DNA from: Ignavibacteriales bacterium
GTDB lineage: Bacteria > Bacteroidota > Ignavibacteria > UBA10030
Assembly (NCBI GenBank): GCA_026390575.1
Contig: JAPLFR010000016.1
Coordinates: 372,001 to 436,000, forward strand
Direction: 5' to 3'
Length of the DNA stretch: 64,000 nucleotides
The notes under the pieces are model-generated. The model was given only the letters and a program-made list of their open reading frames with translations, ran no database searches and had not been told where the DNA came from. The translations under genes and the position numbers were made by a program. Of this stretch, positions 2-26,103 are shown piece after piece; the first letter of the stretch is position 1, and each line of letters begins with the position of its first letter.

Positions 2-1090
2 GGTGTGTTTCAACGGTACATCAATCCTGTCTTGACTGCCGACCATGTGCCAATTCCCTGGCGCTACGATCTCAATTTCAAGACAAATCCATTCCTGATG
101 GAACGGTTGGGAGTGAACGCAACATTCAACTCAGGAGCGATGGAATTCAAGGGAAAAATTGTTTTGGCTGTTCGTGTGGAAGGGGTTGATCGGAAATCTT
201 TTTTCGCAATTGCAGAATCACCAAATGGAGTTGATAACTTTCGATTTTGGGATTACCCCATTCAACTGCAGGAAACGAATGATCCGGACATCAACGTCTA
301 TGATATGCGGCTCGTGAAGCACGAAGATGGATGGATCTACGGATTATTCTGCACCGAACGCAAAGATACAAATGTTGCTCGAACCGATACTTCTTCAGCA
401 CTTGCCCAATGCGGCATTGTGCGGACAAAGGATCTTCTCCACTGGGAGAGACTTCCCGACCTCATCACAAAATCACCGCAGCAGCGGAATGTTGTTCTCC
501 ATCCGGAATTTATGAGAGGAAAATATGCCTTCTACACCAGACCGCAAGATGGGTTTATCGAGGCCGGTTCTGGCGGCGGTATTGGCTGGGGTCTTTCAGA
601 AAGCATGGAATCGGCACAAATCGATAGCGAGATTATCATCGACGACAGGCAGTATCATACAATTAAAGAAGTAAAAAATGGTTTAGGACCTGCACCGATC
701 AAAACGGAAAAAGGCTGGCTGCAATTGGCGCATGGTGTTCGGAATACAGTCGCCGGTCTCCGCTATGTTTTATTTATGTTTCTTACTGATCTGAAAGATC
801 CATCAAAAGTTATAGCAAAGCCGGGTGGTTATTTCTTAGCCCCCGAAGGCGAAGAACGAATCGGTGATGTATCCAATGTAACATTTAGCAATGGCTGGGT
901 GGAACGATCTGATGGCAGGGTATTTATTTACTATGGTTCTTCGGATACACGTATGCACGTCGCTGTTTCCACAGTGGAACGACTGTTGGACTATGTCTTG
1001 CATACACCGGAGGATGGGTTGCGGACTGGATCAAGTGTGCATCAGCGTATTCAACTCATTAAAAGAAATAGTGAGGCAACGAAGAAATAA
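2..1090 (+). CDS. GH130 mannosyl-glucose phosphorylase, 5' end cut by window edge
   Basis: Cytoplasmic inverting phosphorylase that splits beta-1,4-mannosyl-glucose with phosphate to mannose-1-phosphate and glucose, a late step of mannan use. The protein follows the GH130 mannosylglucose phosphorylase pattern closely. The segment NVYDMRL carries the family's general-acid Asp, followed by [27 protein letters not shown], a GSGGGIGWG loop, [13 protein letters not shown] for phosphate and substrate binding, LAHGVRN, and SSDTRMHVA near the end. The frame is open to base 2, and the first GTG at 5 falls inside the conserved N-terminal strand (GVFQRY.NPVLTA). The real start therefore lies upstream, with perhaps 25-35 residues missing. 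There is no signal peptide in the visible part. It is followed by a good intrinsic terminator. GH130 subfamily 1 is inferred from similarity; other beta-mannoside phosphorylases of the family remain possible. Confidence 0.92.
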
Positions 1091-11383: not shown

Positions 11384-12775
11384 TTATTTCTGATAGATCA
11401 ATTTCTTTGTGCTAGAAAAATTTCCTGCATGCATTTCACAAAAATAGATGCCACTTGCTAAATTCTGAGGAACCCAGTGAAGTTCATGAGTGCCTGCAGA
11501 TATGTTTGTGTCCACAAGAGTTTCAATTCTTTGACCCATTATATTATAGATATGTATCGTTACCTGTCCCGAATGCGGAACATAATATTTTATCGAGGTT
11601 GAAGGATTAAATGGATTCGGAAAATTCTGACATAACTGATAAGATTCCGGATTTGCTGACACATTCTGTGAAGGTACAGATACAAGGTGGGCGCCGTCGC
11701 CGACAACTTCTATTTCACTCAGAAGGTTTGTCCCCATTCCTCTTTCATGAAGCAAGTATAAGTGGTTGTCACAATAACCTCGATCTGTGCCTACGGGTTC
11801 CGGAAGTTTTAATTGGGCGGCTTCCGGATCAAGGCCCATAAAATGGGCAGCAATACTGTCGGTTGCAACAGGATCTTTCCCTGCAAATAGAATATTATCT
11901 TCAGTTTCAATCCATACCGGATTCCAATCGCCTTCCGATCCATGCGCATTCATTACTCCATCAATAACTGCAAGATGAACAGGCCGGGCGAGATTAAGAT
12001 CGCAAATAGTTTCAGGAAGATAGGTGTGGATGGCAGGATGTGCATTATCCTTTTGGTGAAGTGCAGATCTGTAGCTTGTATTATCCGAGAGTGTGTATAA
12101 TTGTTTTGGTGTGGAGCCGATTTGATTCTTTAAAGAACCGGTAAAACCGGCTTCATAATGTTGTTTCAATTTAGGTATTGAGACATAGACGTCGATATCA
12201 GAAAGAATTTTATTCTGGGTGAAAGAAGCAAAATTAATATATTTATCACCTACACTTCTCGTTATAAAGCTTGCAGATGGAGCCGGTTTGTTCAAATCCA
12301 CCGTATTGACTCCAAGGTCTAGAAGTATCGTCTTATAATTTGACGGCCAATCTGCCCACAGTGCTTCAACGACATAGATATCTGATTTACTGACTCCCTC
12401 AGCAATGATTAACTCAGTAACAGCTCGTAACACCTCTGGATGAGTACACATATGGTCGGTGTCTGTATTTCCACCCGTAAGATTAACTTTGATACCAACC
12501 TTTTTTCCAGCACTTACAATATCCCCAATACCTCCAATCGAATCAAAAAGATGTTGCACTTTCTGCTTAATCAATGTTCTGTCGTAACTCGTTGCTTGAG
12601 TGACGGCAACTTGTGTTACGTACGAAGATTTACCTTTTAGCCCGCGGCCAAAAAGTTTTGTTGAATTCAACGAAGGAGCAAGAAGCAAACCCGCTGCTGT
12701 CGCACCAACCGCGCCTATAAATTTTCTTCTCGAACAATTTTCCTCTGTAATTTTACTGCCATTGTGCTTTTTCAT
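11384..12775 (-). CDS. DUF362 protein with Tat signal and T9SS type A sorting domain
   Basis: The 463-residue protein is in three parts. Residues 1-45 are a twin-arginine signal (CSRRKFIGAVGATAAGLLLAPSL). Residues about 55-365 are a DUF362 domain (VGIKVNLTGGNTDTDHMCTHPEVL, VSIPKLKQHYEAGFTGSLKNQIG, AVIDGVMNAHGSEGDW, LFAGKDPVATDSIAAHFMG). The last 85 residues are a type IX C-terminal sorting domain (CQNFPNPFNPSTSIKYYVP, VTIHIYNIMGQRIETLVD, ASGIYFCEM). DUF362 proteins are often linked to iron-sulfur ferredoxin domains, but no such Cys cluster is present here. The start is supported by AGGAG 6 bases upstream. Inference: the protein folds in the cytoplasm, possibly with a cofactor, crosses by Tat, then leaves the cell or is surface-anchored by T9SS. 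Its biochemical activity is unknown. Confidence 0.9.
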   Translation of the reverse strand: MKKHNGSKITEENCSRRKFIGAVGATAAGLLLAPSLNSTKLFGRGLKGKSSYVTQVAVTQATSYDRTLIKQKVQHLFDSIGGIGDIVSAGKKVGIKVNLTGGNTDTDHMCTHPEVLRAVTELIIAEGVSKSDIYVVEALWADWPSNYKTILLDLGVNTVDLNKPAPSASFITRSVGDKYINFASFTQNKILSDIDVYVSIPKLKQHYEAGFTGSLKNQIGSTPKQLYTLSDNTSYRSALHQKDNAHPAIHTYLPETICDLNLARPVHLAVIDGVMNAHGSEGDWNPVWIETEDNILFAGKDPVATDSIAAHFMGLDPEAAQLKLPEPVGTDRGYCDNHLYLLHERGMGTNLLSEIEVVGDGAHLVSVPSQNVSANPESYQLCQNFPNPFNPSTSIKYYVPHSGQVTIHIYNIMGQRIETLVDTNISAGTHELHWVPQNLASGIYFCEMHAGNFSSTKKLIYQK

Positions 12776-20039: not shown

Positions 20040-20459
20040 TTATTTTTTTTCTTCTGTCTTTACTTCTTCCTTCATCATAGTCTTCTTTTCCATGTGTTTT
20101 TTCATATCATGCTTCTCGCCCATTTTTTCCATGTGCTTCTTCATATTTTGCTTCTCACACTTTGCCGTGGTATCTTTTGGGCAGGTTCCTTTGCTTCCTT
20201 TTTCACACTTCTCTTTGCATGCTTTCTTGCATTCTGCACACTTTGCACAGCACTTACCGTCGCACTTTTCGCCTGTGCATTTGTCGCAGCATTTCTTGTC
20301 TTTGCAGCAATCCATTTTCTCTTTGCATTCTTTCATCACGTTCTTTTTAACCTTTACAACTTTTTCAACTTTCTTCTCCACGGGTTTATCCTGTGCAAAC
20401 ATTGTCTGCGAGACCATGACAGCAATAATCAACATAAAAACACATACGAGCTTCCGCAT
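20040..20459 (-). CDS. exported Cys/Lys-rich metallothionein-like protein
   Basis: The 139-residue protein has a clear Sec signal peptide (LVCVFMLIIAVMVSQTMFAQ) and a very unusual mature part: a lysine-rich start, then fifteen cysteines packed within about 65 residues in CC, CxxC and CxxxC spacings (DCCKDKKCC, CDKCTGEKCDGKCC, KCAECKKACKEKC), and a Met/His/Lys-rich tail with MKKHMEK repeats. This composition suggests binding of soft metals such as Cu, Zn or Cd in the periplasm or outside the cell, but that is inference from composition. AAGGAG before the ATG supports the start, and its own terminator follows. It is transcribed away from the receptor-kinase gene, with about 200 bp of shared upstream DNA. 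Confidence 0.75.
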   Translation of the reverse strand: MRKLVCVFMLIIAVMVSQTMFAQDKPVEKKVEKVVKVKKNVMKECKEKMDCCKDKKCCDKCTGEKCDGKCCAKCAECKKACKEKCEKGSKGTCPKDTTAKCEKQNMKKHMEKMGEKHDMKKHMEKKTMMKEEVKTEEKK

Positions 20460-20656
20460 ACAACACTCCTTTTGTTTAATACATCATGAGAGAATGAATA
20501 ATAATTTTGCGGTGTACTGGTTGCTATCCTATAAAAGTTTAGCATCCTTCCGCTTGGTATTAAGATAGAAGAAAAGCGCTGAATTTCCAATGTGCTTAAC
20601 TAATGAAATTTGCATCGCTTTTTTGTAGATTTCAATTATTCTATGTATATCATTAG

Positions 20657-23600
20657 ATGAACAGCCGTGCAACCACCATACGAACCATTGTTCTATCCAT
20701 TGCAACTGCCGCTTGCTTGTTAAACGGGTGCATTGGTAAAGACGAATCGGCGGCAGTACATGTTCCTTCTCCGAACCATTCCGGAGGATGGTTTCGCCAG
20801 GCAGTTGTTGATCTGGGCGCTCACATTCAGATGCTAACACCTGTATCGGGCTTTGCGTCATCGCGCGGACGAGGCCCAGAAGTACCTGGACGTATGTATC
20901 GTTTCACCAACGGTAAATGGGATCCCATTCTTACCTATCCGTACTCTGATTCTCCTCTCATCTCTGCCGCAGACACAACAACGGTTTTTCTTGTTCATCA
21001 CCTTGTTCATTCTGGTAACTGCCGCCCTGTTCTCGAGGAATGGCGGAGCGGCACCGTAAAAGAAATCCCTCTTCCGAAAGTGATGTGGGATCAAACCGAT
21101 TATGTAATGTTTAAAAGTCTCTCGCAACTGCCTAACAAGCGTATGTGGATGGTAGGTCAACAGGGACATATTCTTGCACTTGACGACGATCATTGGAAAA
21201 AATCGCCAAGCCCGCTGATTCATGATGAACGTACGAATGCATACGAAGGAGACCTTAATGACGTCTGTATGCTTTCGTCCTTATCCGGCTGGGCTGTGGG
21301 ACGCGATGGTGTCATCCTGCAATGCGTTCAAGGACAGTGGAAGCGTTTCAACTCTCCGACACAGAACGATCTTTTCAAAATCAGTCTGCCGGATGAGCGC
21401 CACGGATGGATAGTTGGAGATAAAGGAACCCTATTGGAATTCGACGGCAATGCATGGCATTCCGTCCCGCTCGGTACGCAACAGTTATTGACATCGGTGA
21501 GGGCAGTTGATTCGACACACGTTTGGATCGTGGGACCCGGCTCGACACTTCTTGTGTACAATGGAAAGACATGGATGACCGATGAATCTATTAAAACTTA
21601 CGATGATACTTTTTCCGACGTGGACGCTACCTATGATTCTTCCGGTACGTTTCATGTTTGGGTCATTGGCGATAGGGGAATATATACAAATTCACAATCG
21701 CTCGAATTCTCGTTCACAGACATTACTTTACAAGCTGCGCTGAGACGCACCGGGAGATCCGGTATTTTCTTCAATCGAACAGGAGGTAATTGTCCCGACT
21801 TGCTTATACTCGGAGACGGCGGTCCAAGTCTCCTCTTTCGTAACAACGGACAAAATGTGTACTCAGATGCGACTCTGGAATCCGGTTTTGAAAGCGTTGC
21901 TAGTGAATGGCAGGCAATGGCCATTGGGGATGTAAACAACGACGGTTCACTCGACATTTTGGAACTTGGCAGCAGCCTGAAGTACCATCTGTTCCTCGGA
22001 ACTGAAGGCGGACGATTTCGCAACAGTACCGATCGAACGAGGGTCCAAATTCAAGAGAATGTCTCAGGTTCCGGCAGCGCTGTACGACTCGTCGACTTTG
22101 ATAATGACGGCAACCTCGACGCATATACTTCCAATGAGGACGGCAGTGATATGTTGTTCCGTAACGACGGCACAGGAAAATTTGTGAATGTCTTTCTTTC
22201 ATCCGGGATTACAAAATTACTGAAACATCGTTCGTTCGGCGCAACGTTCGGCGATTTCAACAACGACGGCCTAGTCGATATCGTTATCCCCTATTACGTA
22301 GGTGAGGATGGGAGATTTATCGATTGTTTTCTGAATGACGGCAACTTCAAATTTCACGCTTCTCCTAATTCTACCTTTGTCTCAAAAGAAAATCCCGCTC
22401 CAACTGTGTGTATTGCAGCCGACTTCAATAACGATGGCAACCTCGATCTTCTTGTCCATAATCAAGGTTCATTGCCGTGGCTGCTGCTCAATGATGGTCA
22501 CGCGCATTTCCGCAGACTTTCTTCAGAGGTCGGTTTTTCCGCTCCGATCTTCCAGCCCGACCCGACAAACGGAACTATTGCAGCAGGCGATGTGAACAAT
22601 GATGGCTGGATCGATGTTTTTATTGCTTCAAAATTATTCCTGAACCAGCATTGCGAACGATTCATTGAAGTATCCGAACAAACCGGTATTCAATTCACCG
22701 GTCACCCTTCATTCGCAGATATCGATAATGACGGCGACCTTGATCTCTTTATCGGCAGTTCAGAGCGGTCTCTTGGCAAGGGCGATCGAACAGCACTTTT
22801 CCGAAATAATTTAAACGACAATAATTTCATCAAAGTTCATATCCTTGGCGATAGGAGCAATCGAGCGGCCATAGGCGCCAAGGTATTTGTCGAAGATCCG
22901 TTGCAGCCTTCCATTCGGCAGCTTCGTGTTGTCGGCATTGGTTCTAATCCGATGGTGCCGCAGGATGTTTCCGAAGTGCATTTCGGTGTTCAGCCGGGAA
23001 GGCGGTACACTCTACGAGTGATTTTTCCTTCAGGCATAGAACAAACGAAAGAAGAAGTACTTGCCGGAAGCCGATTAGACTTTATCGAATCATCTATCAT
23101 TCCACGAGTCGCAATCCTTACATCAAAATCTATCGGCCGAACTCTGAAGATGATAGACTTGCCTGTAGAACTGGTAAAATTTGCGGCTGTCATAGCCCTG
23201 GTCCTGTTGATGGTTGGCGGTGGAATAAAAGTCGGTGCGGGGAAATTCACGCGCCGCTGGTATTTCCCGCTTGCCGGTCTTGTTGCGTATTTCGTCCTTC
23301 TTCATTTCACTATCATAGACGGCCAATTCTTTTCGACGGCTGTCTCATTCGGCGTGCTTCTCATTGGAGGAGGAGTATCGGTGGGTGCTGCCCGGGTGAT
23401 TATTCGAAGACATGAAGCTCAGTATGTATCACACTACAAATTGCTCGGTTTGCTCGGCCAGGGCGGGATGGGACGTGTCTTCAAAGCCATAGACATCAAC
23501 ACAAAACAGACGGTGGCTCTCAAGGTTCTCAATCCTGAAATTGTCAAGGACACGGAGAACAAAAAACGACTGCTGAGCGAAGGACAACTGCTGAACTCTT

Positions 23601-24226
23601 TTTCGCATCCGCACATTGTCCATGTACTGGAAGTGGCAGATACCAGTACGGGCGGATTTATCGCAATGGAATTTCTCGCCGGCGGAACTCTCAAACAAAC
23701 GCTGGAGCGCTTGCATCCGCTGCCGCTGGCGGAGATAAAACGCGTGCTTCTACAAGTGTGCAATGGGTTATCGGAAGTACACAGGCACGGAATCGTTCAT
23801 CGCGATTTGAAGACAGGCAACATCATGTTTGATTCCAGTGGAATCATAAGGATTATGGATTTCGGATTATCAAAGTCGCCGTTGGTGACAACGATGACTT
23901 CGCTCGGCACAGTGCTTGGCACACTCGGTTATGTCGCACCCGAACAAATCACGAATCAAAGTGTCGATCAGCGTACCGACATTTTTTCTCTCGGTGTCAT
24001 CATCAGCGAACTCCTGACCAATACTCTGCCGTTCAAAGGTGAGAATGAGATCGCGCTTATACATTCCATTTTCAATGTTGTTCCGCCGCCGCCTTCTACT
24101 CTCCGGCCGGATGTGACGTCTGCATGGGATTCGATTGTGGCAAGATGCCTGGCGAAGAATCCACATGAACGATATGGCTCAGCAGAGGAAGTAAGAACAG
24201 CGATAGAAGAAACGGTGCTAACCTGA
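20657..24226 (+). CDS. receptor Ser/Thr protein kinase with extracytoplasmic propeller, FG-GAP and UnbV domains
   Basis: The 1189-residue membrane protein begins with a lipoprotein-like signal (ATAACLLNGCIGKD). Residues about 130-345 hold BNR/propeller-like repeats (GWAVGRDGVILQ, GWIVGDKGTLLEFDGNAW, VWIVGPGSTLLVYNG). Residues about 415-700 hold FG-GAP/VCBS repeats with Ca-binding-type loops (DVNNDGSLDI, DFDNDGNLDA, DFNNDGLVDI, DFNNDGNLDL, DVNNDGWIDV, DIDNDGDLDL). An ASPIC/UnbV-like domain follows to about 815 (AAIGAKVFV through EEVLAGSRLDFIES), then about three transmembrane segments between 835 and 915. From about 926 there is a complete Hanks-type kinase: GQGGMG loop, Lys in VALKVL, HRDLKTGN, DFGLS, APEQ, and RTDIFSLGV. 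The sensor is N-terminal and the kinase C-terminal, the reverse of PknB-type receptors. The next gene is a sigma-54 activator, its probable output. Confidence 0.9.
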   Translation: MNSRATTIRTIVLSIATAACLLNGCIGKDESAAVHVPSPNHSGGWFRQAVVDLGAHIQMLTPVSGFASSRGRGPEVPGRMYRFTNGKWDPILTYPYSDSPLISAADTTTVFLVHHLVHSGNCRPVLEEWRSGTVKEIPLPKVMWDQTDYVMFKSLSQLPNKRMWMVGQQGHILALDDDHWKKSPSPLIHDERTNAYEGDLNDVCMLSSLSGWAVGRDGVILQCVQGQWKRFNSPTQNDLFKISLPDERHGWIVGDKGTLLEFDGNAWHSVPLGTQQLLTSVRAVDSTHVWIVGPGSTLLVYNGKTWMTDESIKTYDDTFSDVDATYDSSGTFHVWVIGDRGIYTNSQSLEFSFTDITLQAALRRTGRSGIFFNRTGGNCPDLLILGDGGPSLLFRNNGQNVYSDATLESGFESVASEWQAMAIGDVNNDGSLDILELGSSLKYHLFLGTEGGRFRNSTDRTRVQIQENVSGSGSAVRLVDFDNDGNLDAYTSNEDGSDMLFRNDGTGKFVNVFLSSGITKLLKHRSFGATFGDFNNDGLVDIVIPYYVGEDGRFIDCFLNDGNFKFHASPNSTFVSKENPAPTVCIAADFNNDGNLDLLVHNQGSLPWLLLNDGHAHFRRLSSEVGFSAPIFQPDPTNGTIAAGDVNNDGWIDVFIASKLFLNQHCERFIEVSEQTGIQFTGHPSFADIDNDGDLDLFIGSSERSLGKGDRTALFRNNLNDNNFIKVHILGDRSNRAAIGAKVFVEDPLQPSIRQLRVVGIGSNPMVPQDVSEVHFGVQPGRRYTLRVIFPSGIEQTKEEVLAGSRLDFIESSIIPRVAILTSKSIGRTLKMIDLPVELVKFAAVIALVLLMVGGGIKVGAGKFTRRWYFPLAGLVAYFVLLHFTIIDGQFFSTAVSFGVLLIGGGVSVGAARVIIRRHEAQYVSHYKLLGLLGQGGMGRVFKAIDINTKQTVALKVLNPEIVKDTENKKRLLSEGQLLNSFSHPHIVHVLEVADTSTGGFIAMEFLAGGTLKQTLERLHPLPLAEIKRVLLQVCNGLSEVHRHGIVHRDLKTGNIMFDSSGIIRIMDFGLSKSPLVTTMTSLGTVLGTLGYVAPEQITNQSVDQRTDIFSLGVIISELLTNTLPFKGENEIALIHSIFNVVPPPPSTLRPDVTSAWDSIVARCLAKNPHERYGSAEEVRTAIEETVLT

Positions 24227-24338
24227 CGCAATAGAACACCCCGCAAGGATGACGATGGTAGAATTTGATGATGCATAGTTTTCATTGCTGTTACGGTTTC
24301 TCGTTGCTACATTAGGAACATCCATCTTGGAAAAGTAA

Positions 24339-26072
<1,734 letters not shown>

Positions 26073-26103
26073 CAATATCCGACACTTCCTCAGAGAATAT
26101 TCT

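Follow-up and report, generated by a model that had tools for sequence, protein, structure and literature searches.

The window, a stretch of 64,000 nt from contig JAPLFR010000016.1 of an Ignavibacteriales bacterium (genome G000), carries two adjacent genes that probably encode a dedicated inner-membrane receptor pathway. As judged from their sequences, this pathway would resemble a two-component system, with a Hanks-type Ser/Thr kinase, a type that animals and plants also use, and a sigma-54 activator as its parts; it would lead from an outside signal all the way to gene control. In the best reading, the Ser/Thr kinase stands in the place of the histidine kinase, and the activator in that of the response regulator. 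The first gene, which starts with ATG, encodes a receptor kinase that had been described in a first-pass annotation of the window. The adjacent activator gene was absent from that description and is the strongest clue to function. The features of the two genes are the following.

20636..26103, + strand: two-gene segment absent from the same-genus site (left edge by DNA alignment with genome G004; right edge approximate, likely the start of the next gene)
20657..24226, + strand: receptor Ser/Thr kinase, 1189 aa (open reading frame (ORF), Pfam, 22-sequence alignment, AF2 model)
20657..20731, + strand: predicted lipoprotein-type signal, residues 1–25, ending in LLNGC (Cys kept in 20/20 readable N-termini)
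20792..21688, + strand: first seven-bladed propeller, YCF48/BNR-like, residues 46–344 (PSII_BNR match, model strands, fold alignment)
21713..22807, + strand: second seven-bladed propeller, FG-GAP type with six DxNNDG loops, residues 353–717 (FG-GAP_3, loops, CRTAC1 match)
22826..23086, + strand: UnbV/ASPIC beta sandwich, residues 724–810 (Pfam, model, CRTAC1 alignment over model 307..771)
23159..23416, + strand: three predicted membrane helices, the last continuing as a juxtamembrane helix, residues 835–920 (hydropathy, loop charge, model helices)
23435..24211, + strand: Hanks-type kinase domain, PknB-like, residues 927–1185 (Pkinase, best PDB match, catalytic residues in 21/21)
24339..26072, + strand: GAF-AAA+-Fis sigma-54 activator (enhancer-binding protein), 577 aa (Pfam, invariant GAFTGA, co-occurrence, adjacency)
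24642..25052, + strand: activator GAF domain, residues 102–238 (GAF_2, E 1e-12)
25149..25649, + strand: activator AAA+ domain, residues 271–437, with GAFTGA at 346–351 (Sigma54_activat, E 2.4e-69, invariant columns)

The distribution of both genes was surveyed in 391 genomes of the class, for each of which up to a fixed number of first-pass candidates was scored. With the first propeller as query, 24 genomes matched, of which 21 were counted as receptor genomes, each with a single match; G047, G180 and G276 were left out, as their matches span 102–126 residues in other ORFs. Records of the receptor family that give an organism name are Ignavibacteriales, Melioribacteraceae, Ignavibacteriaceae and, for a metagenome-assembled genome, ‘Bacteroidetes bacterium’. 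Nineteen of the receptors lie in open frames of 1176–1239 residues, one of which is interrupted by an in-frame stop; the other two are cut by contig ends. Since the relatives align to the window receptor over the full length, at 37–52% identity, the ORF is not a chance one, and by its sequences the receptor is a conserved family. When genome contigs were scanned with two peptide patterns and the best 80 loci kept, FG-GAP and kinase were found in one ORF only in this family (six loci, and a seventh, L073, which is cut by a contig end); such a scan is a weak basis for absence elsewhere. A phage or plasmid setting was rejected: no relative was found in a scan of viral contigs, the phage collection not having been searched, and although 870 plasmid records gave a match, not one reaches 80% coverage of the query.

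The N-terminal 260 residues of the activator were used as the second query. A homologue is present in 23 of the 391 genomes at E ≤ 2e-44, and the next match has an E-value of 3e-20; these are 23 of 39 listed genomes, the remaining 16 contributing 18 matches of E 2.9e-20 or weaker that were left out. All 21 receptor genomes are among these 23. In 19 of the 21, receptor and activator lie on one contig and on the same strand, separated by at most 112 bp in 14 cases. The other two are fragmentary: the activator contig of G375 starts inside the receptor, and both genes of G091 are cut by contig ends. The activator occurs without this receptor in two genomes, G095 and G061. In G095, the contig starts inside a kinase that is 64% identical to that of the window, and G061 carries the receptor variant described below. 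A family member outside the 21, L078, has the activator 7 bp downstream. The activator itself carries a Fis-type helix-turn-helix besides the GAF and AAA+ domains, and the GAFTGA motif is invariant in 22 activator sequences. Sigma-54 is encoded in G000 and in 378 of the 391 class genomes. At three loci of one genus (L165:3278-5891 and the matching places in L166 and L167), PII-like, outer-membrane-like and AmtB genes stand between receptor and activator on the opposite strand; AmtB was assigned by Pfam in L165 and PII by eye. These genes were taken as incidental, given their restriction to one genus and their orientation.

Sensor and output have been exchanged in both directions, because one relative has swapped the sensor and a set of histidine kinases has swapped the output. 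In G061 (L187:7145-10447), a Reg_prop/Y_Y_Y ectodomain precedes a Hanks kinase 62% identical to that of the window, with the same activator downstream; similarity to the window receptor starts at the last membrane helix. Conversely, FG-GAP/UnbV ectodomains of this type also occur on 12 HisKA_3 histidine kinases (L070 and L214–L224). Six of these were checked with Pfam and the other six by motif and alignment; UnbV is not reported in L224 at E ≤ 0.001. They align to the receptor up to residues 830–922, at about 24–30% identity and in most cases with the membrane region included, and L070 has three hydrophobic segments in the same place as the receptor. A response regulator lies directly downstream in 11 of the 12, and is of the LuxR type in the two tested by Pfam. 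For L214–L224, the regulator was found by pattern in nine of the eleven loci; in L220 and L222 it was recognized on reading the loci. Four further FG-GAP histidine kinases (L225, L226, L227 and L228), with HATPase_c but without a HisKA_3 match, were kept outside the count of 12. The first-pass annotation regarded FG-GAP and UnbV domains as normally belonging to adhesion or secreted proteins. Judged by sequence, the combination is more than an adhesion module in this class: it is also a recurrent sensor, borne by histidine kinases as well. There is about an even chance that the window pair is a portable one-to-one cassette of receptor kinase and sigma-54 activator, made from exchangeable sensor modules, in which the phosphorylation chemistry has been swapped beneath one sensor design.

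The layout of the receptor is supported by several methods. Pfam reports FG-GAP_3 in six stretches (E 1.6e-33), PSII_BNR/YCF48 at residues 226–270 and Pkinase at residues 927–1177 (E 1.7e-56). The UnbV_ASPIC match at 738–807 scores 22.2 bits in the protein scan, where the cut-off is 23.4, and 25.7 bits in the genome scan, which is above the cut-off. Six DxNNDG loops, at residues 425, 480, 533, 589, 645 and 688, are kept across the 22-sequence family alignment with single-residue departures. A structural model of the receptor from the 22 sequences has a mean pLDDT of 84.8, and a model of the ectodomain alone reaches a pLDDT of 90.5 and a pTM of 0.89. Blades were counted by eye from the strand lists of these models; read in this way, six of the seven blades of the second propeller bear calcium-type loops. 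In a fold search, propeller chains align to model residues 1–305 with Z around 28. Pfam, loops and hydropathy thus agree with the first-pass annotation on an FG-GAP/UnbV ectodomain of about 830 residues with six DxNNDG loops, about three membrane segments and a C-terminal kinase.

Hydropathy places hydrophobic segments at residues 839–857, 869–887 and 898–916, and the model has helices at 835–858, 869–885 and 890–920. Residue and segment counts were made on the 21 sequences readable for the region concerned. At the same hydropathy threshold, three segments are found in 17 of the 21 and two in the other four. Lys and Arg residues number 68 in the loops between the first and second segments vs 10 between the second and third, the former loop having more in 19 sequences and as many in two. 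This excess favors an orientation with the propellers outside and the kinase in the cytoplasm; the prediction is thus opposite to the outside kinase that the first-pass annotation had named as grounds against its reading. The N-terminus is, by its sequence, a lipoprotein-type signal: a lipobox-type Cys at residue 25 is kept in all 20 family members with a readable N-terminus, as read by eye.

The kinase domain has the Gly loop, VAIK Lys, HRD, DFG and APE motifs, all present, by which a Hanks-type Ser/Thr kinase is recognized in sequence. Residues G934, K956, E975, D1050, K1052, N1055, D1068 and E1096 are kept in 21/21 sequences with a readable kinase, which is consistent with the earlier suggestion of an active enzyme. 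In the model, the activation loop at 1073–1084 has no confident placement. PknB is the best PDB match of the domain, both by sequence and by fold. The kinase lies N-terminally in all 19 other kinase loci compared from related genomes, with 2–54 residues ahead of it; relative to those 19 kinases, the layout of the receptor is reversed, as had been noted from the window alone. No PASTA domain was found in the receptor in the Pfam and NCBIfam scans, and the PASTA kinase model NF033483 gives 271.5 bits vs a cut-off of 450, matching over model positions 8–268 only. The receptor is the sole strong Pkinase match in G000. The other match, of 31.6 bits, is a 1236-aa protein (L072:4560-8270; G000:C16, ~120.5–124.3 kb) that combines a weak N-terminal kinase match with an ORC/CDC6-like ATPase and a PADLOC CARF-STK-AAA model match.

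In the genus of the window, the pair is missing at the same site in all four readable genomes (G001, G003, G004 and G005), in which the flanks are present: mfd on one side, DUF6588 with typA on the opposite side, and DUF6901 detected there in two of these genomes. G002 was not counted, as its contig stops 2.4 kb upstream of mfd and has other genes in that stretch. Homology with G004 stops at position 20635, 22 positions short of the start codon; that genome has about 230 bp in place of the two genes of the window. In G003, two other genes, of 476 and 326 aa, stand at the site of the pair (L211:10351-12769), so the site seems variable in this genus and may be a hot spot. G000 alone among 32 genomes of its taxonomic family has a strong receptor match, so that joint gain of both genes explains the pattern most simply; loss from the remaining genomes is the alternative. 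Close to the pair, at 20040-20459 on the minus strand, the window encodes a secreted-looking protein of 139 aa that is extremely rich in Lys and Cys (KCCDKCTGEKCDGKCCAKC); it has no Pfam match, but three genomes of the genus have matches to it at this site. Further away, at 11384-12775 on the minus strand, lies a gene for a DUF362 protein whose C-terminal sorting domain is of the type IX secretion kind.

The following course of events can be proposed for the receptor pathway. A periplasmic ligand, probably a glycan or another exported polymer, would be held at the propeller faces with the help of the calcium-type DxNNDG loops. By analogy with BT4663-class sensors, the ligand would alter the packing of the propellers and the sandwich, and this shift would be relayed via the membrane helices and the helix at 890–920. 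The kinases could then dimerise and cross-phosphorylate within the conserved TMTSLGT loop. Once active, the kinase would phosphorylate the activator, for which the N-terminal coil or the GAF region is the likeliest target; the AAA+ ring, freed in this way, would open promoters of the sigma-54 type. Ligand, phosphorylation, promoters and regulon are all inferred.

A number of observations weigh against this pathway. The gap between receptor and activator is 439–4404 bp in 5 of the 19 loci with both genes on one contig, and L075, a family member outside the 21 genomes, has no activator on its 8.7 kb contig. For the histidine kinase L070, no regulator is in view, the DNA being masked beyond about 700 bases after the kinase. 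Kinase and activator distances do correlate closely (r 0.93 over 21 pairs, 0/2000 permutations), which favors a pair, but the correlation may only mirror shared descent. In another class of the phylum, there are four distant full-length homologues (L231–L234) at 26.5–27.7% identity, in which Pfam reports FG-GAP and kinase; they have three or four calcium-type motifs and lack the lipobox Cys and a UnbV match. In these, Gln replaces the Glu of the APE motif, and no activator was found within the 12–13 kb read; the receptor can therefore exist without the activator. Three of the four (L231, L232 and L234) adjoin a pair of histidine kinase and response regulator, to which the receptor is convergent; the regulator at L231 is of the OmpR type by Pfam. 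Finally, a search of G000 with the sigma-54 consensus TGGCAY-N5-TTGCW gave nine sites vs three with the reversed control, all nine within or overlapping ORFs, so that no regulon was found in this genome.

The loci of the relatives were searched for targets as well. With at least 10 of the 12 consensus positions, 19 sites were obtained vs 16 for the reversed control, and three vs none when only intergenic sites upstream of an ORF were considered. Of the 21 loci in which a gene follows the activator, only L069 and L188 have a sigma-54-like site between the two, kept here as a mere lead; most other loci, many of them AT-rich, have no candidate in this position. In both cases (L188:2470-2485, 11/12 positions; L069:5621-5636, 10/12), the candidate site stands before a gene for a protein with a type IX secretion system (T9SS) tail. 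According to a home-made tail model from five sequences, and with related genomes kept in the counts, the first ORF that follows the activator encodes a T9SS-tailed protein in 6 of 23 loci, as do 30 of 280 ORFs in the loci overall. T9SS cargo as regulon is suggestive and was dropped as a claim; among the six, related genomes account for two pairs, and one of the genes is on the opposite strand. In four genomes (L164:4349-5107, L165:93-863, L171:4126-4896 and L175:15096-15869), the first same-strand gene after the activator encodes a member of a lipoprotein-like family of about 255 aa, with no Pfam match in the two members tested.

Instead of a kinase and its substrate, the two genes could form one regulatory locus, in which a small molecule, bound by the GAF domain, controls the activator while the kinase acts on other proteins in a common process. 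In NorR, NifA and similar sigma-54 activators, the GAF domain detects small molecules or reacts to a partner. The GAF domain of the window activator could take a ligand of its own, the activator matching the NifA and NorR models below their cut-offs, and the distance of up to 4.4 kb between the genes in some loci points in the same direction. Such separate control is nevertheless unlikely in view of the strict co-occurrence of receptor and activator, the fact that the activator stays where the ectodomain has changed, and the analogous pairs of kinase and response regulator on the same sensor type. Less probable still is a general kinase of the PknB kind with many targets in envelope growth, for which the activator would be one target among many. 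PknB-type kinases are pleiotropic, PknB is the nearest solved kinase, and no other strong Pkinase match exists in G000, but the receptor has no PASTA repeats, is sporadic (21/391 genomes), and is present or absent together with a single partner. Strong PADLOC matches of the kinase domain to PD-T4-6 and MAD6 could suggest an anti-phage defence kinase. However, the best 25 of these 34 matches cover residues 911–1187 only, which is the kinase domain and could be matched by any Hanks kinase, while the remainder of the protein has the make-up of a receptor, and an activator is its partner. No defence family was found among the neighbors in Pfam and NCBIfam scans, PADLOC not having been run on the neighbors, and a role in defence is considered highly improbable.

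The ligand of the receptor can be weighed separately. The earlier suggestion that it senses a surface polymer or a self-derived glycan, with an ectodomain derived from adhesion proteins, is compatible with the proposed pathway and is held here as a tentative possibility, on the unlikely side. The modeled ectodomain resembles both CRTAC1 and the glycan sensor BT4663, and T9SS-tailed proteins come first downstream of the activator in the six loci given above; on the other hand, such tails are also found elsewhere in the loci, and no T9SS-tailed gene adjoins the activator in the window. The likeness to carbohydrate-sensing BT4663 makes a glycan ligand plausible by analogy, no more.

If the kinase does phosphorylate the activator, receptor pathway and histidine kinases together would be a clean case of the same sensor design feeding either of two phosphorylation chemistries. 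They would also provide a natural set of chimeras for testing how signals pass the membrane, and would give FG-GAP/UnbV ectodomains a sensor function. One of the closest known systems is the hybrid two-component sensor of the BT4663 type, with two seven-bladed propellers and a beta sandwich outside, a membrane segment, and a kinase inside. In a PDB fold search with the ectodomain, BT4663 takes ranks 2–11 with TM-scores of 0.41–0.50; the domain arrangement differs, since the root-mean-square deviation is 17–20 Å. In a second ectodomain search, BT4663 is outside the best 50 matches, which residues 1–305 fill and which thus exclude nothing, and only kinases are among the best 50 for the whole receptor. 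The BT4663 type has Reg_prop and Y_Y_Y, neither of which is found in the receptor at E ≤ 0.1, where FG-GAP/UnbV occurs instead. It further unites histidine kinase, receiver and AraC in one chain, whereas the receptor has a Ser/Thr kinase and three membrane helices without receiver or AraC. The L187 relative bridges the two, as it has the sensor type of BT4663 atop the kinase of the receptor. The FG-GAP/UnbV histidine kinases share the domain order of the receptor but use HisKA_3/HATPase and a response regulator in place of the Hanks kinase and sigma-54 activator.

Murine CRTAC1 superposes on residues ~349–813 of the ectodomain (Z 36.3, 438 residues, 2.7 Å, 23% identity), and in the model an FG-GAP propeller is followed by UnbV, as in CRTAC1 and the FG-GAP/UnbV family. 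CRTAC1 is a secreted protein that is not known to carry a kinase; in the receptor, a further propeller at the N-terminus, the membrane helices and the kinase come in addition. NifA/NorR-type activators likewise consist of GAF, AAA+ with GAFTGA and a Fis-type helix-turn-helix, but the window activator scores below their family cut-offs (374 of 529 bits for NifA, 343 of 476 for NorR) and is linked to a Ser/Thr kinase receptor. Among the PASTA kinases PknB, StkP and Stk1, the kinase domain is closest to PknB; the receptor differs from these in its C-terminal kinase, its lack of PASTA and its three membrane helices.

The first-pass annotation had left room for an architecture already common and described. 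It is indeed that of a conserved family, yet no description of a system of FG-GAP/UnbV kinase and sigma-54 activator was found in the open-licence literature, among the titles and abstract openings listed. A survey of bacterial Ser/Thr kinase architectures treats PQQ and WD propeller repeats and PASTA receptors, with no FG-GAP term (PMC1262709), and a paper on FG-GAP/VCBS propellers names a kinase once, for PknD (PMC8023676). Sigma-54 has been linked with control of the cell exterior in another study (PMC3162934), by which no regulon is identified here. Bacterial Hanks kinases are described, in a paper on Gram-positive pathogens, as mostly pleiotropic and without exclusive partners (PMC4601284). 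In contrast, the kinase of the window and one transcription activator are inherited as a pair.

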